Origin: Peptococcaceae bacterium
GTDB lineage: Bacteria; Bacillota; Peptococcia; Peptococcales; Peptococcaceae
Assembly (NCBI GenBank): GCA_017547685.1
Contig: JAFYPD010000020.1
Span: 52,600 to 116,599 of the forward strand
Length of the DNA: 64,000 bases
Direction: 5' to 3'
Part shown: piece after piece, positions 2,799 to 55,362 of the stretch
Layout of the letters: every line of letters begins with the position of its first letter
Position numbering within the stretch: the stretch's first letter is position 1
Made by a program: the position numbers and the translations under genes
Notes under the pieces: generated by a model
The model's input: the letters and a program-made list of their open reading frames with translations, nothing else
Told to the model about the DNA's origin: nothing
Databases searched by the model: none

Positions 2799-3143
2799 TC
2801 AGCGCTGATTAAAATTCTCTTCCCCGATCAGATTAAACAATTCATCCTCTCCAGCCTGGTCAAACAAATCACTGTCCGTTATCCAGCCGCCCAGTTCATC
2901 AGCCAGCAAATCCTGCTCCAGGTTTTCTCCGTCATCATTCCGGAACGGATCCAGTAATACCTCCAGCACGGCACCGGCCTGCAGATTCACCAGCTCACTG
3001 GTGAGCGCGATCAGACCCAGCAGGAAAATATGCCCTGCATAGCGCAGAACCGATATACACTGGTCATCATTTGAAGGAGTATGATTCTGTTTTCGTTTTG
3101 GCCGGACCAGCCGCTGATGATACGCTTCCCCGTTCTGCTGCAA
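2799..3143 (-). CDS. Small membrane-associated protein with acidic tail, unknown function
   Basis: I do not recognise this 114-residue protein. It has a basic N-terminal third, one hydrophobic segment (about residues 38-54, including HIFLLGLIAL) and a strongly acidic C-terminal half rich in Asp/Glu. This suggests a single-pass or peripheral membrane protein. The start is TTG at 3143, about 9 bases after GGGAGGAGGG, a strong ribosome binding site that favours a real gene. An overlapping ORF on the same strand (3067-3321) uses the same binding site less well and has no domain-like composition. Divergent from the DUF3243 gene at 3244. Confidence 0.55.
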   Translation of the reverse strand: MQQNGEAYHQRLVRPKRKQNHTPSNDDQCISVLRYAGHIFLLGLIALTSELVNLQAGAVLEVLLDPFRNDDGENLEQDLLADELGGWITDSDLFDQAGEDELFNLIGEENFNQR

Positions 3144-3243
3144 AATACATCCCTCCTCCCTTCAGTATATGAATCAATTTGTTTTTTTGCGTATATCTGA
3201 TTTTGTTTTTGACCATACTACAGACAAGCAGGAGGTGATCAGC

Positions 3244-3507
3244 ATGTTTGGTAAAAACACAAACGAACCGGCACAGTTTCCGCAGGCGCTGGCCCGCGTC
3301 ATCGAGGACGGCCAGAAACACGGTGTGACCGATGAGATGATGGTAAAAGGTATGGTGAGCGTCGGTAACCTGATGGGACAGTTCGTGAAGCCGGACTCTC
3401 CGGAAGAAGCCCTGATGAAAGAAATGTGGGAATCGGCCAATGACCAGGAAAAGAACGCCGTTGCCCAGATGGTGTTAAAAGTAGGCCGCAAAAAACTGGC
3501 CCACTGA
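3244..3507 (+). CDS. DUF3243 family protein
   Basis: An 87-residue protein. Its middle (GQKHGVTDEMMVKG ... GNLMGQFVKPDSPEEALMKEMW) and the end (EKNAVAQMVLKV) match my memory of the Bacillota DUF3243 family: small, helical, of unknown role. The ATG at 3244 is preceded by AGGAGGTGATCAGC, an almost full-length ribosome binding site, so the 25 extra codons of the longer ORF are not used. It is monocistronic: a divergent gene upstream and a clear terminator at 3562-3598 downstream. Confidence 0.85.
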   Translation: MFGKNTNEPAQFPQALARVIEDGQKHGVTDEMMVKGMVSVGNLMGQFVKPDSPEEALMKEMWESANDQEKNAVAQMVLKVGRKKLAH

Positions 3508-3561
3508 CATACTGTGATTTACAGATTATTTTTTGTTTTTCATTTTCTCCCCTCATTTTAT

Positions 3562-3598
3562 AAAAACCGTGCATACGTTCTCAGTATGTACGGTTTTT
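3562..3598 (+). terminator. Intrinsic terminator after the DUF3243 gene
   Basis: AAAAACCGTGCATAC pairs with GTATGTACGGTTTTT with one bulge, ending in a T-run on the plus strand. It lies 55 bases after the stop. Confidence 0.8.
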
Positions 3599-3653
3599 CG
3601 TTGTATAAACATCTCTATCCCCCTGTTTCCCTGCAACGGGGCGAGGATAACAG

Positions 3654-3709
3654 AAAACGGCCTGGATAACGCATGGTATATTTCAGCTATGCGTTGTCCA
3701 GGCCGTTTT
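3654..3709. terminator. Long inverted repeat, probable bidirectional terminator
   Basis: Two 21-base arms (3654-3674 and 3689-3709), pairing with a single G:T-type mismatch, share the core AACGGCCTGGA. They are flanked by A and T runs on both sides. The element lies between the convergent DUF3243 gene and the CDF transporter, 25 bases from the transporter stop, so it may end both transcripts. Confidence 0.7.
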
Positions 3710-3734
3710 GTCATATCACATCAAAACAATCCTG

Positions 3735-4628
3735 TCAGTTTTTACTGCATGCGGCAGGATTGACATGCACCACGCAATGTTTCACCAGCGGAAAGCTCTC
3801 TTCAATGCCGTTATGCACCTGCACCGCAATATCATGCGCCTGGCGCAGCGACAGATTTTCATCAGCTTCAATTTCCACTTCCACATACATTCTGGAGCCA
3901 AACAGACGGGTGCGCAGCACATCCAGTTCTTTCACGCCATGGCAGGATGTAATCAGCTGACGCATGGCGGTTTCTGTTTCAGCATCGCAGGAGCGGTCTA
4001 CCATACGATCGAAGGTTTCCCGGAAAATATCGACTGCCACTTTCAAGATGAGTACGGCAATCACCACACTGGCCACCGGGTCCAGCACGGGATAGCCCAG
4101 ACGGGCACCCAGAATGCCGGCAAAACTGCCAACAGAACTCAGCGCGTCGGAGCGATGATGCCAGGCTTCGGCCATCAAAGAAACAGAGTTGATTTTTTTG
4201 GCAGCAATTTTTGTATACCAGAACAGCCCTTCCTTTACCGCAATGGAAATGACAGCGGCAAACAATGCCAGCTGCCCCGGCACCGTCAGAGCGCTGTAAT
4301 CGCCGGAGAGGACTTTTTCCAGTCCGCTCATGCCGATACCCAGCCCGACCAGCATCAGAATATTGGCCAGAATAATAGATATCACGCACTCCATGCGCTC
4401 ATGACCGTAAGGATGTTCTCTGTCGGCCTCTTTACCGGACACATTGGCACCGATGATTACCAGAAAGGAACCGAATACATCCGATGCTGAGTGTACAGCA
4501 TCGGCTACCATGGCACCGGAACGGGCCGCAACACCGGCTGTCAGTTTCATCACCGTCAGCAGCACATTGAGGATAATGCTGATACGGGATACTTTTATGG
4601 TTAATGCTTTTTCCTCTGACACTGTCAT
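3735..4628 (-). CDS. Cation diffusion facilitator (CDF) metal exporter
   Basis: A 297-residue inner-membrane transporter that would export divalent metal in exchange for protons. About six membrane helices cover the first 210 residues. The two metal-site signatures are visible: DAVHSASD (His46, Asp50) in helix 2 and HHRSD (His157, Asp161) in helix 5. The HxxxD pairs are the arrangement usually linked to Zn-type CDFs, but Fe or Mn transport cannot be excluded. A cytoplasmic C-terminal domain rich in Glu/His follows. The ATG at 4628 has AGGAGG 8 bases upstream. It is divergent from a ferritin-like gene, so both may belong to metal handling. Confidence 0.93.
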   Translation of the reverse strand: MTVSEEKALTIKVSRISIILNVLLTVMKLTAGVAARSGAMVADAVHSASDVFGSFLVIIGANVSGKEADREHPYGHERMECVISIILANILMLVGLGIGMSGLEKVLSGDYSALTVPGQLALFAAVISIAVKEGLFWYTKIAAKKINSVSLMAEAWHHRSDALSSVGSFAGILGARLGYPVLDPVASVVIAVLILKVAVDIFRETFDRMVDRSCDAETETAMRQLITSCHGVKELDVLRTRLFGSRMYVEVEIEADENLSLRQAHDIAVQVHNGIEESFPLVKHCVVHVNPAACSKN

Positions 4629-41164: not shown

Positions 41165-42526
41165 TCAGATTTTCATTGTACCGTCTGCAAGGTCTCTGGA
41201 TACAAACGGGATAAAGTAAAACGGTATCGTAAGCAGTTTTTGTTCAGGATTATAGCCATAATTATTTTTTGACACCTTAATGGCGTACTCAAATTTATTA
41301 TGACCTGAGAACTTTTCGAGAGAGTTGAGCGTACCTCTGCCTTTTTTTACATCAATCGGATACAATTTGTTATCAGATTCGATAATAAACTCAAGCTCGG
41401 CATACGCTTTTCCTCTCCAATAAAACAACTTGTGTTCTTTGGCAATTAATTCGTTTGCCACAAAATTTTCAAAGAAGATACCTGACAGGGTATTTTCTCG
41501 CTCGCTTGATATAAACGAAGCAGCATTGATACCGCTTTGGTATGAAAACATCCCTATATCACCAAGAAACAGACGGAAGCTACTTTCGCTATCCGGCATA
41601 AGTGGCATTGTAACATGCTCCTTCAACTGGAACGACTGATTGACAACGTGTGCCATCGTTAACCATTGAATAGAGGTTGCAAAATCTCTTGTTTTGCTCT
41701 TTTCCTCAATAAGCCCAGGAGAAAAGTTTTTGGATTCTTTGTTTAGTTCTCTGTATATATTCTGGAACAGAACACGGGAACGCAGCACTGCTTCCTGGCT
41801 TGCCTGATACAGTTCCATATCAGCAAGATAGTTATCGTACAAAACTTTGAGAATTTCTCTTGCTTCAAAAAGGTTTTCTCCGTCAATGTAGGCTTCCACC
41901 GCCTCCGGCATACCACCCACAAGCAGATATCTATAAACCTGTTCCATTGCCAGCTCGTGAATTTTACTGGCCAGTGGCTGCCTGCTTTCATACGCCTTTT
42001 TTATCGCATTATAAAGCATTTTGTTACTATTCATAAGAAACTCGTCAAATGTCATAGGATAAACCGTCATTTGATTTATTTTTCCAACAGGAAAAAGAAA
42101 TTTTTCGGTTTCTTTCGCGCCTCTCTTGTGCGTTTCTCTTTGAAGTTTAATACGCACCATTGAGCCGGTTGCAATAACGGGAATCTCTCGGAAATCCTGG
42201 CAGAAATATTTAAGGGAAGAAATGATATTGGGACATTCCTGCACTTCATCAAAAATCAGCAAAGTTTTATAATTAATCTGTCTGCCTTTAAGCAACGAGA
42301 TGTATTCAATGATTTTCTCTGCATTAGCAGTTCTGGAACAAAACTCACGAATCTCATCCTCTTTTTTGCAATCCACATAGATATAGTTATCTTTATAATA
42401 TGTTTCAGCAAAAATTTCCTGAACCAGATAGGTTTTACCGACCTGTCTGGCACCCCAGACAATCAAGGGCTTTTTGCGCTTATTGTTATTCCAGTCTATC
42501 AATTTTTGCAAAGCAATTCGTTCCAT
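41165..42526 (-). CDS. AAA ATPase with DUF4143 domain (first of two)
   Basis: A 453-residue protein. The N-terminal AAA-type ATPase has Walker A GARQVGKT (25-32) and Walker B LLIFDEVQECP; a middle helical region follows, then a C-terminal DUF4143 domain of nuclease-like fold (YWRGKAYAELEFIIESDNKLYPIDVKKG, a D/E...D-x-K pattern). The family is abundant in anaerobes and unassigned; roles in defence or mobile elements are suspected. The ATG at 42526 follows GGAGG. Its promoter (42556-42584) carries a 33-bp-period iteron array. A paralogue lies at 49.3 kb with a similar layout. Confidence 0.9.
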   Translation of the reverse strand: MERIALQKLIDWNNNKRKKPLIVWGARQVGKTYLVQEIFAETYYKDNYIYVDCKKEDEIREFCSRTANAEKIIEYISLLKGRQINYKTLLIFDEVQECPNIISSLKYFCQDFREIPVIATGSMVRIKLQRETHKRGAKETEKFLFPVGKINQMTVYPMTFDEFLMNSNKMLYNAIKKAYESRQPLASKIHELAMEQVYRYLLVGGMPEAVEAYIDGENLFEAREILKVLYDNYLADMELYQASQEAVLRSRVLFQNIYRELNKESKNFSPGLIEEKSKTRDFATSIQWLTMAHVVNQSFQLKEHVTMPLMPDSESSFRLFLGDIGMFSYQSGINAASFISSERENTLSGIFFENFVANELIAKEHKLFYWRGKAYAELEFIIESDNKLYPIDVKKGRGTLNSLEKFSGHNKFEYAIKVSKNNYGYNPEQKLLTIPFYFIPFVSRDLADGTMKI

Positions 42527-42555: not shown

Positions 42556-42584
42556 ATTGTAGCATAACCTGCACCATTTTCCAA
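42556..42584 (-). promoter_or_regulatory. Promoter of the first DUF4143 ATPase
   Basis: On the minus strand TTGGAA (42584-42579), a 17-base spacer and TACAAT (42561-42556). The spacer contains the promoter-proximal iteron of the array at 42568-42682. Confidence 0.75.
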
Positions 42585-42682
42585 GTTATTTTAATAATTA
42601 TTTGTACCTTTATACACTTTTATATTTATATTATTTGCACTTTTATCCATGTTCATATTTATATTATTTGCACCTTTGTACT
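42568..42682. repeat. Four-iteron array with 33-bp period upstream of the first DUF4143 ATPase
   Basis: Plus-strand cores TGCACC, TGTACC, TGCACT and TGCACC have their G at 42571, 42604, 42637 and 42670: spacing exactly 33, 33 and 33. Three of the four are preceded by ATT and followed by a T-rich stretch. The period is close to three helical turns. Confidence 0.7.
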
Positions 42683-49267: not shown

Positions 49268-50626
49268 TCATACACCCAATCCACTGATATCCACTTTAAA
49301 ATGCATATTGATTCGTTCCGGCTGCTGGTAGCAGAGAATCATATACCACGGCAGATAAAGAATTTCTCCGTTCTGCTCAATATTTCCGCGACAGAATACG
49401 ATTTTACGGTCAAAATTCCAGTTCTCTACGGCTGCTGTTTTGTCCAGTGCATGATGTTTTTTATAATCGCTGCCAGATTTAATTTCCAGCAGGTCTGCTT
49501 TCATGCCGCGCTGTACTACAAAATCCAGTTCCCCATATTTTTTGGAGTCAAAATAATGCAGTTGAAATCCTTTGCTTTTAATTTCCTGCGCCATACAGTT
49601 TTCCAGAATACTGCCCATGTTAATTTCCAGATTTCCTGTTAAAATATCAAACTGAACATTCTCCATACAGGCTGCACAGAGCAGTCCTGTATCAGCCATA
49701 TACAGCTTAAAGAGATTATGTTTTTCATTCAGCTGCAGAGGCGGCTGCGGTTCTGTGACATTATAGCAGGGCAGTGCAACGCCGGCTTCTGCCAGCCAGT
49801 CAAAACTGTTGGCATAACGATTCTGCCTTCCATTCTTGTCAATGCTGTTCAATATAAACCGTCTGTTTTTATCGTTCAGCTGCGCCGGTATCGCATCCAG
49901 AATAGCACGGATTTTTATTTTATCGCTATCTGATGCATACTTGGCAATATCCAGCCGGTATAGCGCCAGAATATCCAGCTGATTCTCCACGGTTTTTCCA
50001 ATATCATGCGTATTCACATAAGTCTGCACAACCTGTGGCATACCACCGACAACCATATAGGTATAAAACAGCTGCAGCATCGTTGTATGCACCGAATCTG
50101 ACACAGCTTCTTTTTTCTCAAAGCAGGTTCTCAAATAGTGCACGGTTTCCGGCTGTACATCATTTGCCCACAAAAATTCCTCAAAATCCATCGGATATAA
50201 ATAATAGATTTCCTCAAACCCCACCGGATAGGAACGTACCTCCTTATAACGAACCCCCAGCTGGGAACCGGTTTCAATATAATCAAATCTGCCGTCTTCC
50301 ACAAGAAATTTTATGGCTGTACGAGCTTCCGGACATTCCTGTATCTCATCCAGAAGAATCAGCGTTTTTCCTGGCTCCATTTTCTTCTGCACATAAGCCG
50401 TCAAATTAATCATAATCTGTTCTGCCGATAACGTGCCGGAAAAAATCTGTGCGGCCTTTTCATCGGTCAGAAAATTCAGCTCAGCAAAACAGTCGTACTG
50501 TTCTTTGCCAAACTGGCGAACCAGCGTTGTTTTCCCTGTCTGGCGGGCACCAATCATACAAAGGGCCTTTTTATGCTCGCTCTGTTTCCAGTCAAGCAGT
50601 TTTTCGTACGCTTTTCTGCGCAGCAT
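49268..50626 (-). CDS. AAA ATPase with DUF4143 domain (second of two)
   Basis: A 452-residue paralogue of the protein at 41.2 kb. Walker A GARQTGKT (26-33), Walker B LILLDEIQECP and a C-terminal DUF4143 nuclease-like segment (HYFDSKKYGELDFVVQRGMKADLLEIKSG, with E...D and E-x-K) are visible. The ATG at 50626 follows TGAGGTG. Its upstream region has a four-iteron array with the same 33-bp period as the first paralogue but a different motif. No toxin-like partner gene is adjacent. The function is unknown. Confidence 0.9.
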   Translation of the reverse strand: MLRRKAYEKLLDWKQSEHKKALCMIGARQTGKTTLVRQFGKEQYDCFAELNFLTDEKAAQIFSGTLSAEQIMINLTAYVQKKMEPGKTLILLDEIQECPEARTAIKFLVEDGRFDYIETGSQLGVRYKEVRSYPVGFEEIYYLYPMDFEEFLWANDVQPETVHYLRTCFEKKEAVSDSVHTTMLQLFYTYMVVGGMPQVVQTYVNTHDIGKTVENQLDILALYRLDIAKYASDSDKIKIRAILDAIPAQLNDKNRRFILNSIDKNGRQNRYANSFDWLAEAGVALPCYNVTEPQPPLQLNEKHNLFKLYMADTGLLCAACMENVQFDILTGNLEINMGSILENCMAQEIKSKGFQLHYFDSKKYGELDFVVQRGMKADLLEIKSGSDYKKHHALDKTAAVENWNFDRKIVFCRGNIEQNGEILYLPWYMILCYQQPERINMHFKVDISGLGV

Positions 50627-50679
50627 AGTTATCACCTCAGCAATCAATCTTTTCCCGCGTTACAAGTTTCATATTATGT

Positions 50680-50708
50680 ATTGTAACATTTTTCTCATGT
50701 TTTATCCA
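50680..50708 (-). promoter_or_regulatory. Promoter of the second DUF4143 ATPase
   Basis: On the minus strand TGGATA (50708-50703), a 17-base spacer and TACAAT (50685-50680). The promoter-proximal iteron overlaps this -10. Confidence 0.6.
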
Positions 50709-50795
50709 CTCTTCTGTAACATTTTTCTTGGTTTTTAATATGGATTTGTAACATTATTCTCGCATTTATGCCATACCCCTGTCACATTTTTCTAA
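50681..50795. repeat. Four-iteron array with 32-33-bp period upstream of the second DUF4143 ATPase
   Basis: TGTAACATTTTTCT-type repeats begin at 50682, 50715, 50747 and 50780 (spacing 33, 32, 33). The third has ATTATTCT and the fourth begins TGTCAC. Sequences between repeats are not conserved. Confidence 0.8.
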
Positions 50796-50813
50796 TCCAT
50801 CCGCTTCACAGCA

Positions 50814-50850
50814 GAACAGCCCTCCGGTTGAAAAGCCGGAGGGCTGTTCT
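50814..50850. terminator. Strong hairpin after the AlbA/Schlafen gene
   Basis: GAACAGCCCTCCGG and CCGGAGGGCTGTTC form a perfect 14-bp stem with an 8-base loop. There is no long T-run, but its position 22 bases past the stop fits a terminator. Confidence 0.65.
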
Positions 50851-50871
50851 ACTGTGACATCCATCAATTCA

Positions 50872-52281
50872 TCAGGATTTCAGTTTATATACTCTGTTTC
50901 GGCGGTTGCCTTCCGCCACGATGATTTCCTCCTGCAGCAGTTCTTTGAGAATCATAATCACGCGGGCGGCGCTCAGCCCTGAGATTCTTCTGAAATCAGC
51001 ATTGCTGCCGGTGACATGATCGGTCAGGTAATCAACAATGGCTTCTTTATGGGTCATTGCTGTTTTCATTGTTTTGTATGTTCGCGCTTCGCCAAAGGTC
51101 AGTGTCAGTGTGGTGCGGTCCGGTGCAAACAGCTCCTGCACAACAGGGTCATCCCAGCCGCGCTGCTCCCACGCATCATAGATATGCGGCATCCCGCGCC
51201 CTGTGCCGTGCCCCGCACCAATCAGGCTGAACATACGAAGCAGTGCAGCGTTTCGCGGGTCAGAAATCCCGCCGTTTTTCGCCTCCCGCACATCAATCCG
51301 GAAGGTTCCCGGATTGGAGAACACCACGGCATCGTTCTTTTTGAGAATCACGATGCCCCGCGAACCCTGATAATCTGCATGAATCAGGCAGTTGGCCAGC
51401 GCCTCGCACAGCGCACTGCGGATGGAGGCCTGATCGGTTGTGTCAGGGATGGCCTGTGTCAGTTTTTCATATACACGAAAATAAAAATCGTACAGATTGC
51501 CGCTCCAGTCAGCGGAAGAAGACGTAATATGCTCTTCCAGCTGTCCTGCATCACCGCTCTGTTCCTGATAATCCAGCATATAATGCGGATACTGGCGAAT
51601 AATTGCCGTTTCCCGCCCGAACATCAGCAGCCCGGCCGCAGTTGGATGCAGCAAATCGTCTGTGCTTTTGCCAGCGGCACCCAGCTGATATAAAAATGCT
51701 GTGTCGTCCAGTGTTTCCCAGGCTTGGCCTGGCCGCCGCTCCTTCATTCGCATCCGATAGCGATGCACCGTATCATAATCTAAATCTGCAAGGCTGCTGT
51801 CATTCAGCACTGCCATATCCTGCGTCTGCACAGCGGCATCGCGCATCATAGCCAGTACTTCCTCCCGGGTACACCGGTAATCCCCTTCCCCGCTGCGCCG
51901 GTAGGTACCTGTAAACGGGTCGCCGTCCACATATACCGGCCTGCTGTAGCGCTGCGCCCGGGGGATATCAATTACAATGATGCGGTTTCCGTCAATTTCT
52001 TCAATGGAAACATCCTGCTCTGACAGAATATTGACATTTACTTTCTTCGGATTGCTGAGCATACTGAAAAATTCCTGCACAAGCGCTTCCGGGTCCGGCA
52101 GATTGACCAGATGCAGCGATTTGTCTTTGTGTTCCTCCACCCCCAGCAGCAGAATGCCGCCCAGGGTATTGGCAAAGGCCGAATAGGTTTCCCACAGGCT
52201 TTTCGGCAGCCCGCCGAGAGACCGCTTTGCCTCAATGCGGTTGTTCTCTCTGTATTTCTGTATGTTGGCAAAATCAATCAT
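50872..52281 (-). CDS. AlbA/Schlafen-domain ATP-binding protein
   Basis: A 469-residue protein. The N-terminal AlbA_2/Schlafen-type domain has EAKRSLGGLPKSLWETYSAFANTLGGILLLGVEE. A middle region is followed by a GHKL-type ATP-binding part (LCEALANCLIHADYQGSRGIVI, then VFSNPGTFRID and GAGHGTGRGMPHIYD). The C-terminus looks like a winged helix. Proteins of this type act as transcription regulators or in phage defence; the role here is unknown. GGAGGG precedes the ATG. It follows the HAD gene by 45 bases with no terminator between. Confidence 0.88.
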   Translation of the reverse strand: MIDFANIQKYRENNRIEAKRSLGGLPKSLWETYSAFANTLGGILLLGVEEHKDKSLHLVNLPDPEALVQEFFSMLSNPKKVNVNILSEQDVSIEEIDGNRIIVIDIPRAQRYSRPVYVDGDPFTGTYRRSGEGDYRCTREEVLAMMRDAAVQTQDMAVLNDSSLADLDYDTVHRYRMRMKERRPGQAWETLDDTAFLYQLGAAGKSTDDLLHPTAAGLLMFGRETAIIRQYPHYMLDYQEQSGDAGQLEEHITSSSADWSGNLYDFYFRVYEKLTQAIPDTTDQASIRSALCEALANCLIHADYQGSRGIVILKKNDAVVFSNPGTFRIDVREAKNGGISDPRNAALLRMFSLIGAGHGTGRGMPHIYDAWEQRGWDDPVVQELFAPDRTTLTLTFGEARTYKTMKTAMTHKEAIVDYLTDHVTGSNADFRRISGLSAARVIMILKELLQEEIIVAEGNRRNRVYKLKS

Positions 52282-53532: not shown

Positions 53533-54554
53533 CAAAGACAGAATTTCTTACCTTTTTAGAACAGCGGCTCATGGTGCTCAACGATAGTGAACGAGCCGAT
53601 TTGTTAAACGAATACGAAGAACACATCGATATGAAAATGGACTCCGGCTTATCGGAAGAAGAAGCCATTGAAGGCTTCGGCGACCCGGAAGAACTGGTGA
53701 AAGAACTGCTGGATGCCTATCACTTAAACACCGATTACCAGCCGCCGGGCAGTGCCGCTGCATCGCGCATCGGCTATTATGTAAAAAGCTGCGCTCATTT
53801 TGTAAGCAGTATGTTTGATACGCTGTTTCATTACAGCATGCGTGATTTATTTAAGCTGTTTTTACAGGCATGTTTTCTGGCAGCGTTCCTGGGCGTGATT
53901 CTGATTGGCGGCGCTTTCTTTGGCGCCCTTCTGCGCAGCACTATCTGGCAGTTCTGGATTGGGCGTGTACTGTATGATGTTATCGCCTTCTTCGCGTGGA
54001 TTATTTACATGGCACTCGCCGTTTATCTGGTTGTGTTCTTTATCAGACGCTACATCCTGATTGATTACCAGCCGTTAGAACCGCCTGTTCTGAACAGTTC
54101 TCCAAAAGAACCGTTCCGCATGGAAAATCTCCATCTGGACGAGCATTTTGACAGTGCAAAAAACTATGCAGGCAGTATGGCGGAACAGACCAGCGAAGCC
54201 TTTGCCCGCATGAAACAGAAAGCAGCGGAAAGCCGCGAACTGCGCGCTGCAAAACGGGAAGGCCGGGAACCGGTCAAAATTCCGTTTCCGGATATTTCGC
54301 TGGGCGAACTCTGCATGAAAATTATCGTGTTCTGCTGCCGGTTTATCGCATTCTTCTTCCTGCTGATGGCCGGATGCGCCGCACTGGGGCTCATTGCAGC
54401 ATCGGCCACAGGCCTTGTATTTCTTGTAATGGGTTACAAACTGTTCGGCCCGTTCCTGATGATTCTGGGCTGCGCTCTGTTCTCGGTTGTGGCAACCGGT
54501 ATTCTTCTGCAGTTTGTATTCGGCATTGGAGGTGACAAGCATGAAACTGTTTAA
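53529..54554 (+). CDS. DUF1700 / HAAS-domain membrane protein
   Basis: A 341-residue protein. The N-terminal ~75 residues are the DUF1700 helical domain (EFLTFLEQRLMVLNDSERADLLNEYEEHIDMKM, GFGDPEELVKELLDAY). Two pairs of membrane helices follow (around residues 115-175 and 265-330), with a charged, coiled-coil-like cytosolic stretch between them. DUF1700 genes typically follow PadR genes and are thought to sense or transduce membrane stress. It is coupled to both neighbours (4-base and 14-base overlaps). Confidence 0.9.
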   Translation: MTKTEFLTFLEQRLMVLNDSERADLLNEYEEHIDMKMDSGLSEEEAIEGFGDPEELVKELLDAYHLNTDYQPPGSAAASRIGYYVKSCAHFVSSMFDTLFHYSMRDLFKLFLQACFLAAFLGVILIGGAFFGALLRSTIWQFWIGRVLYDVIAFFAWIIYMALAVYLVVFFIRRYILIDYQPLEPPVLNSSPKEPFRMENLHLDEHFDSAKNYAGSMAEQTSEAFARMKQKAAESRELRAAKREGREPVKIPFPDISLGELCMKIIVFCCRFIAFFFLLMAGCAALGLIAASATGLVFLVMGYKLFGPFLMILGCALFSVVATGILLQFVFGIGGDKHETV

Positions 54555-55362
54555 AAAAACCTTCAGCATGTATGTGCTTCTCTCCATTCTGGGCGTAGTA
54601 TGCATCGGTCTGGGGTGCGGCATCTCGGTGTTTGAGCTGAGCGAATACAAAGTGGCGGATTATCGAACCAGTCCGGCTGACCCTTCTCTTCCGCAGCTGA
54701 AATCCGAAGTGGTAACATTGGAGGCGCCGCTTTCCGGCAGTGAACTGTTTAAACTGGACGCCACCTACTGGACCATAAACGGATATGATATCCAGTACGA
54801 TAATACACTGACCGATAAAGTTATCATTGAGATAACAGCGCCAGAAGATTTTTATTCGATTTCGCTTCAAAAAGCAGATATGCAGCAGGAGAATTACTAC
54901 TATCTGGAATGTACCGTGGATGAATTTGCGCTTATGCGTTTCTCACTGGGTTTAGCGAAACAGGGCTATATTCCGGATAATTATCCGCCTGCCGAAGTAA
55001 CGCTGATTATGAGCGAAACACAGGCAAAAAACTTTAAGCTAAATGAAATGCGTGACAAACGCAATGCGCTGGAACAGAGCTATCAGGAAGAAATCCGGAT
55101 GCAGCAGGAGCACTATAACGAACAGCTGAACGAAGTACATGCACAATATAATGAACAGCTCCAGATGACACAGGAACAGCACAGCGAACAGATCCAAAGC
55201 ATAAATCAGCAGCATGAAGAGCAGCTGCAGGCTGTCCGCGAGCAGTACGAAGAGCAGCTGCAGGCTGTCCACGAGCAGTACGAAGAACAGCTGATGCTGA
55301 AAGAGGAGAAAATCCACAATCTGCAGCAGCAATTGAATGATGTTCGCAGCTCATTACAATAG
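54541..55362 (+). CDS. Membrane-anchored coiled-coil protein with 11-residue repeats
   Basis: A 273-residue protein. An N-terminal signal-anchor (KKTFSMYVLLSILGVVCIGLGCG) is followed by an extracytoplasmic beta-rich part (about 30-165). The C-terminal ~85 residues are a helical rod. Six tandem 11-residue repeats of the form (Y/H)xEQLQxxxEQ occupy residues 192-257 (bases 55114-55311). The period suggests a hendecad coiled coil. The beta part may correspond to the putative adhesin seen in other PadR-DUF1700 operons, but I cannot recognise that fold. GGAGG precedes the ATG at 54541. Confidence 0.8.
   Translation: MKLFKKTFSMYVLLSILGVVCIGLGCGISVFELSEYKVADYRTSPADPSLPQLKSEVVTLEAPLSGSELFKLDATYWTINGYDIQYDNTLTDKVIIEITAPEDFYSISLQKADMQQENYYYLECTVDEFALMRFSLGLAKQGYIPDNYPPAEVTLIMSETQAKNFKLNEMRDKRNALEQSYQEEIRMQQEHYNEQLNEVHAQYNEQLQMTQEQHSEQIQSINQQHEEQLQAVREQYEEQLQAVHEQYEEQLMLKEEKIHNLQQQLNDVRSSLQ

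Follow-up and report, generated by a model that had tools for sequence, protein, structure and literature searches.

The window analysed here is a 64,000-nucleotide stretch of contig JAFYPD010000020.1 from a Peptococcaceae bacterium. At 50.6 kb it carries, on the minus strand, an intact gene for a protein with AAA_14 and DUF4143 domains. Four direct repeats (TGTAACATTTTTCT), spaced 33, 32 and 33 bp, form an array before this gene and overlap its predicted promoter. On the sense strand, the repeat reads AGAAAAATGTTACA. An earlier note on this DNA had placed the four copies at exactly the positions of Table 1. It had also reported that the first copy overlaps the predicted -10, and copy 1 does include TACAAT (50685-50680). 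The array scored 15 (z = 13.2) with a chain detector that looks for at least three windows of 14 nt at an even period, and none of 200 dinucleotide shuffles equalled it. A paralogous gene lies at 42.6 kb. As the note described, its array has an equal copy number (four), a spacing of 33 bp and another motif.

The 50.6-kb protein exceeds the Pfam cut-offs for AAA_14 (PF13173, 93.5 bits, cut-off 27) and DUF4143 (PF13635, 99.1 bits, cut-off 28.1). At E<=0.001 these are its only Pfam domains, with no replication initiator domain and no repeat (sensor) domain. The PADLOC model PDC-S01 matches residues 8-455 of the 459-aa frame with 560 bits, and both window proteins match PDC-S01 models across nearly their full length. 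The ATPase core and a winged helix stand in the STAND arrangement. In 68 sequences, E342, E366 and K383 are invariant, and D368 and E381 are conserved in at least 90%. Walker-type residues are conserved as well. The C-terminal domain is a candidate for the PD-(D/E)XK fold. Taken together, the prediction is a STAND-type ATPase that carries a winged helix and a PD-(D/E)XK-like nuclease domain. Its best Foldseek match, at a low TM-score of 0.27, is 8bob_C, an entry on maltose-system regulation that is presumably MalT. Orc1/Cdc6 is also among the matches. At the sequence level, the PDB gave no match at E<0.05.

With the PF13635 profile, 12 DUF4143 genes were found in the genome. For eight of them, 0 of 200 shuffles equalled the score of the upstream array, and the motifs differ. 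Six of these arrays have periods of 32-34 bp, L002 (loci of the survey carry L numbers, and L007 is the 50.6-kb gene) has 22-23 bp, and L004 is irregular and weak (z 3.2). The regions upstream of L001, L008, L009 and L012 fail the array test. Among the six 32-34-bp arrays, each consensus fits its own array at 16-17/18 and the others at 10-14/18. Among 46 genomes searched in the class, and among 398 in the phylum, only this one has the exact motif pair of the 50.6-kb array, and the match is the array itself; this search would miss degenerate arrays such as L030-L032. GAAWAATGTTACA, allowing one mismatch, gave 20 matches in its own genome against 12 for the reversed control. The array accounts for four of the 20, among them three of the four exact matches; a second cluster was not found in this genome.

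The period is linked to the family beyond this genome. We gathered 108 distinct DUF4143-like genes, leaving out truncated matches. Seven had too little upstream DNA or N, and 101 were testable. As controls we took genes of the same loci that have an upstream gap of 100 bp or more (of 158 eligible genes, the first 150 were run and 137 were testable). Included in these sets are 16 loci that we had retrieved as window-protein relatives. Arrays with z>=4 precede 28/101 DUF4143 genes and 7/137 controls. Four of the seven are DUF4143 arrays viewed from the neighbour gene, and the remaining ones (o654, o748, o795) are other repeats. When the threshold is that none of 100 shuffles equals the score, the counts are 33/101 and 9/137. 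The spacings in the 28 arrays are 32 (14), 33 (39), 34 (6), 35 (1), 22 (1), 23 (10) and 40 (2). Likewise, a lag histogram of 102 DUF4143 upstream regions has peaks at 32 (16 genes) and 33 (19 genes), where shuffles give 0.2 and 0.4. Smaller peaks appear at 22-23 (2 and 4 genes) and 40 (4 genes). The earlier note had said that arrays unlinked to DUF4143 genes in relatives would count against it; the linkage held.

Two further sets were tested. One covers plasmid and phage relatives (10 of the 24 matches listed, 31-42% identical). In 8/10 of them there is an array that none of 100 shuffles equals, seven at 33-34 and one at 42. L137, where the gene is unannotated and its start was estimated, and L143 have no array. 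The motifs differ, and several have a GAAAAGTG-like core in common. The other set comprises 28 loci, the best protein matches in 398 genomes of the phylum (27 tested; L173, the same gene as L005, was left out). Nine of the 27 are positive, with median spacings of 31-34 (L160: 33 and 29). Among the negatives, L167 and L176 are genes that the first survey already contained. The detector picked start codons by a simple score, and eight of these loci were scored from the start of the protein match. On a tree built from 108 proteins, the arrays group by clade: 10 changes suffice for the ~33 label, whereas shuffles take 22.8. Five of the six genes with a period of ~23 fall in one six-row clade with full support.

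In 323 kb of the genome (the window and 259 kb in 20 stretches), nine places score at least 8, and four of them are spaced near 33. Two are the window arrays, which are non-coding. The other two, L123:16295 and window position 55111, lie inside reading frames and were rejected as further arrays. At the latter (55111-55300, plus strand), the frame 54487-55362 encodes QYEEQLQAVHE-like repeats with a unit of 33 (once 30) bases.

The motif follows the gene across species. In genome_contigs we found ten Bacillota orthologues of the window protein (62-70% identical) and six Bacteroidota relatives (32-35%). Counting the window gene, the orthologue group has 11 members, of which nine carry at least three motif copies. 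In 35 units, chosen by motif match and with three out of register, the motif columns hold 0.9-2.0 bits and the flanking columns 0.0-0.9, mostly <0.5. In the Bacteroidota relatives, a spacing of 32-33 bp is preserved, and the units are AAAATCTyGATTTGGTGCAAA-like. Among 39 arrays (741 pairs), pairs with less than 40% protein identity have motif similarities of 0.30-0.33, and those at 40-50% have 0.36-0.37. The similarity rises to 0.46 at 50-65%, 0.63 at 65-80% and 0.79 above 80%. Common descent of the upstream DNA as the whole cause is argued against by the drifting flanks. A functionless remnant of tandem duplication, or a chance similarity, could be imagined in such AT-rich sequence with short units. 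However, the shuffles, the lag histogram and a motif kept across 11 group members while the flanks drift speak against it, and its probability seems close to negligible.

The gene and its array seem to form a stand-alone unit. Between the 16 relatives and the window, with 83 neighbouring proteins of at least 120 aa compared, only one pair of loci (L030/L031) has a neighbour in common. A conserved partner gene, as in a toxin-antitoxin pair, was therefore not found among neighbours of this size. In 5 of 22 pairs, the DNA homology begins at or inside the array and stops at about the stop codon (Table 1). Other homologies are shorter (L030/L033 from 2926; L037/L038 with gene and array as separate pieces; L010/L015 with the gene and little more) or longer (L030/L031, continuing downstream; L032/L033, to 4713; L088/L089). 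At the level of sequence, these comparisons show that motif and gene are inherited together and that the array is kept with the gene in other species. The note had proposed a paired ATPase/array module. The array does go with its own gene and the motif tracks the protein, but the pattern is wider than a pair and includes the six paralogues with clear 32-34-bp arrays and the one with a 22-23-bp array.

Table 1. Features at the two window loci, motifs of paralogous arrays, and DNA homologies between loci of relatives.
Feature	Positions	Strand	Remarks
AAA_14-DUF4143 gene (50.6 kb)	49268..50626	-	452 aa from ATG; first TTG of the frame at 50647
Predicted -10, TACAAT	50680..50685	-	overlaps copy 1
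Repeat copy 1, promoter-proximal	50682..50695	-	includes predicted -10
Predicted weak -35, TGGATA	50703..50708	-	in spacer between copies 1 and 2
Repeat copy 2	50715..50728	-	
Repeat copy 3	50747..50760	-	
Repeat copy 4, distal	50780..50793	-	2 mismatches against group consensus
22-nt inverted repeat	50806..50857		95% complementary, 8-nt loop; between upstream gene and 50.6-kb array
Paralogous AAA_14-DUF4143 gene	41165..42526	-	453 aa
Paralogue array	42564..42680	-	4 copies, sense AGGTGCAAATAA; spacing 33, 33, 33
L007 (50.6-kb gene) motif			AGAAAAATGTTACA
L010 motif			AGGTGCAAATAA
L011 motif			TGCGCATAATCTCAT
L005 motif			GGAAAAAGCTGCATAC
L003 motif			ATGCAAAAGTTCCTA
L006 motif			TATAAGTATACTTTAAG
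L002 motif			CGCCAACTTTCCGAAAAA
L030/L032 homology	2887-4358		first copy at 2888
L031/L032 homology	2863-4358		
L034/L035 homology	2872-4346		first copy at 2874
L036/L037 homology	2876-4346		
L036/L039 homology	2875-4337		begins at third copy of L036

The upstream neighbour of the 50.6-kb gene (50872-52281, minus strand) encodes a Schlafen AlbA_2 domain and a RecG-C-like ATPase domain. The inverted repeat of Table 1 separates it from the array and possibly marks the end of its transcript; no terminator with a T-run was found there. For the 42.6-kb paralogue, all 119 others among its best 120 database proteins are 90-93% identical over 99-100% of it, which suggests that it spread widely and recently. 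Relatives of the 50.6-kb gene are far more distant, at 66-81%.

The position of gene and array in unrelated neighbourhoods could also suit a mobile unit. In that case the gene would be initiator-like, and the repeats would be replication or mobility iterons at an origin or end. Orc1/Cdc6 among the Foldseek matches points the same way, and so do two more motif copies of the Bacteroidota type, spaced 33, that lie downstream of the L035 gene (L035:4438-4491) in addition to its upstream array. These copies are possibly the trace of a lost second copy. On the other hand, the remaining 16 scanned loci show no cluster but the one upstream of the gene, with three solitary two-mismatch matches elsewhere. 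The array lies over a predicted promoter, and Pfam gives no initiator domain. The gene was not found in scans of viral_contigs, which reach close relatives only; 13 unannotated phage records carry distant relatives. Iterons are a very improbable explanation.

The last repeat holds the predicted -10 (TACAAT and variants), at offset 9-11 of the unit, in each of the nine orthologue-group members whose array reaches z>=4, and the -35 is in the preceding spacer. A promoter-like sequence in several clade-A genes has motif copies on both sides, spaced about 32 bp. A guessed -10 falls within the array span or at most 5 bases away in 26/30 arrays; the guess is crude outside Bacillota. The motifs also have a direction. 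For 12 representative motifs, from proteins <45% identical, sense similarity is 0.335 and reversed similarity is 0.252 (50/66 pairs, p ~0.0002 by flipping). An A-tract followed by GT occurs on the sense strand of at least one unit in 10/12 motifs, and on the opposite strand in one (L041).

We propose that the array is a private operator, where the gene's own STAND-like ATPase would bind and repress its own transcription. We give this a probability of about 0.6. With 33 bp being about three helical turns, several subunits might line up next to each other on the same face of the helix. Once bound, they would block the access of RNA polymerase to the -10. If the protein left the array, for example on activation or on titration by invading DNA, the expression of the gene would rise. 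The protein is a predicted nuclease-bearing STAND ATPase, so that silencing itself would limit the amount of a dangerous product. The arrangement is what a self-repressor would have: the sites are over the predicted promoter, and the motif is gene-tied, kept with the gene, found nowhere else, direct, asymmetric and repeated about three turns apart. The array, its period, its motif and its place before the gene are observed; we infer binding by the ATPase, repression and release on activation, each of them. For the many genes of this very common family that have an array over or beside the predicted promoter, with a motif common to close relatives and not to sister genes in the genome studied here, it likely means silencing of the own gene only.

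The same sites could instead serve autoactivation. A MalT-like STAND activator would bind the array as an enhancer and recruit RNA polymerase. The match to 8bob_C, presumably MalT, would agree with this, as would a guessed -10 downstream of the array in 4/30 cases. Sites over the -10 are unusual for an activator, and here the last repeat includes the predicted -10 in nine of nine members, while the clade-A copies stand on both sides of promoter-like sequence. In favour, PMC4381067 describes cooperative binding of multimeric MalT to its MalT boxes, with recruitment of RNA polymerase. On balance, autoactivation is unlikely.

The earlier note had suggested that each paralogue, or a paralogous regulator, recognises its own array. 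This stands in so far as orthologues keep their motif in unrelated neighbourhoods; as the binder, the ATPase competes with another regulator. An unlinked host regulator would bind the arrays and control the ATPases. It has in its favour that binding by the ATPase is a deduction and that the winged helix does not track the motif. Nevertheless, paralogue motifs differ within the genome, and such a regulator would need a matching partner for each motif, with the exact paired motif nowhere else in 398 genomes. Outside the own genome, the best protein match in these genomes (at most four candidates scored per genome) is 41% identical. An unlinked regulator is quite improbable.

The note had further supposed that the arrays diversified to avoid cross-talk. 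The own and other fits given above are compatible with it, but the idea was not borne out: motifs of 15 co-resident pairs are no more different (mean similarity 0.365) than those of 51 other representative pairs (0.334). The co-variation of arrays with ATPase domains, which it had recommended as a check, singled out none: in the domain-wise correlation of protein and motif similarity, no domain stands out.

Several observations weigh against the operator as proposed. Group-specific residues are not enriched in any of the four domains (21-27% in each). The winged helix is the natural candidate for the reader, yet it does not track the motif (partial correlation -0.22), and L142 and L153 have fairly similar motifs with winged helices only 28% identical. 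In 13 of the 66 representative pairs, the similarity is above the 95th percentile of a column-shuffled null; the motifs thus vary on a common skeleton and are private only in a relative sense. Within the orthologue group, L029 has two copies and L033 one. Most of the DUF4143 genes (73/101) have no array at z>=4, and some of these have two copies or palindromes, by eye only. The nine controls that beat all 100 shuffles mean that the detector is imperfectly calibrated. The promoter itself is predicted. Its -35 is weak, and promoter-like sites across the window (6 vs 4.2 expected) are not above chance. The four arrays with a downstream -10 fit poorly.

Other layouts occur in the family. In clade J (L008, L020, L065), two palindromes each surround the promoter (GCAACAAGTTGC, GTGCAAATGCAC, TGCCGTTTACGGCA). 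They differ in sequence from gene to gene and seem, by eye, a third operator layout. In clade I, again by eye, a single inverted repeat covers the -10 or the leader. Likewise, L013, L050, L054, L069, L080 and their clade mates show inverted repeats of different sequences over the -10 or leader (by eye). Rarer periods were seen upstream of 1998 in L138 (three copies at 42, 42) and in the upstream region of L023 (three copies at 40, 40). L097 has repeats (CAAATGTTTGTTGCT spaced 45, 46, 47) upstream of a frame at 2427, downstream of a DUF4143 gene.

The array might also act as a decoy. It would copy repeats of an invader, and the ATPase-nuclease would watch for such repeats and stay inactive on its own array until invading copies titrate it. 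The protein is a PADLOC PDC-S01 defence candidate, its nuclease-like residues are conserved, and the geometry is iteron-like. However, the exact motif pairs of the 50.6-kb and 42.6-kb arrays had 0 matches each in viral_contigs. One plasmid and 23 phage records matched the array at E<=1, and among the matches listed none covered more than a third of it (<=33%). A decoy is rather improbable, and on these searches an invader as the origin of the array was rejected.

Private self-repression would explain how many paralogues of a hazardous ATPase-nuclease coexist in one genome. It would also provide a large natural set of matched protein-site pairs for learning a DNA-reading code. The own operator indicates the DNA that each protein likely recognises, and it gives a ready assay for the PDC-S01 family. 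A wider picture is possible, although doubtful. The family could be a repertoire of self-silenced NLR-like nucleases, with the arrays as brake and identity tag. Competing invader DNA or triggered assembly would draw the protein away from its array and thereby raise expression and nuclease activity in one step, and a dozen paralogues would live together without mutual silencing.

PDC-S01 is described in PMC12988326 as the fourth most common defence across prokaryotes (9,986 in archaea, 29,494 in bacteria), with validation pending for most such candidates. In rumen genomes, 10,358 are counted in PMC13356809. The passages of these two papers that concern PDC-S01 leave upstream repeats unmentioned, whereas here the gene has its own array. 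In the open-access literature searched (titles and abstract openings) on DUF4143, COG1373 and PDC-S01, nothing was found on arrays before such genes, and no mechanism for PDC-S01 turned up. The Thermus DUF4143 gene TT_P0211 appears with a value of 6.6, of unverified direction, in an expression-change table that accompanies the plasmid-DNA section of PMC4406477.

Among proteins of known structure, the archaeal STAND ATPases SSO1545 (2fna) and PABY2304 (2qen) resemble the DUF4143 protein, but the match stops before its C-terminal nuclease-like part. Plasmid iterons are also evenly spaced direct repeats beside the gene of a DNA-binding protein. The present repeats differ in lying across a predicted promoter, and Pfam detects no initiator domain in the protein. 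MalT, likely the low-TM Foldseek match (8bob_C), is alike in binding several sites cooperatively. However, it has a sugar sensor and activates other promoters, and here the array is only before the own gene and covers the predicted -10. RptR, the repressor of a defence island (PMC12255303), acts on its own promoter through three direct repeats, two of them over the -10, and controls defence genes. Nevertheless, RptR is a distinct protein of 9 kDa, and its one conserved palindromic site lies in 9-bp repeats, whereas in the present family the ATPase itself would be the repressor, with motifs that vary among paralogues.
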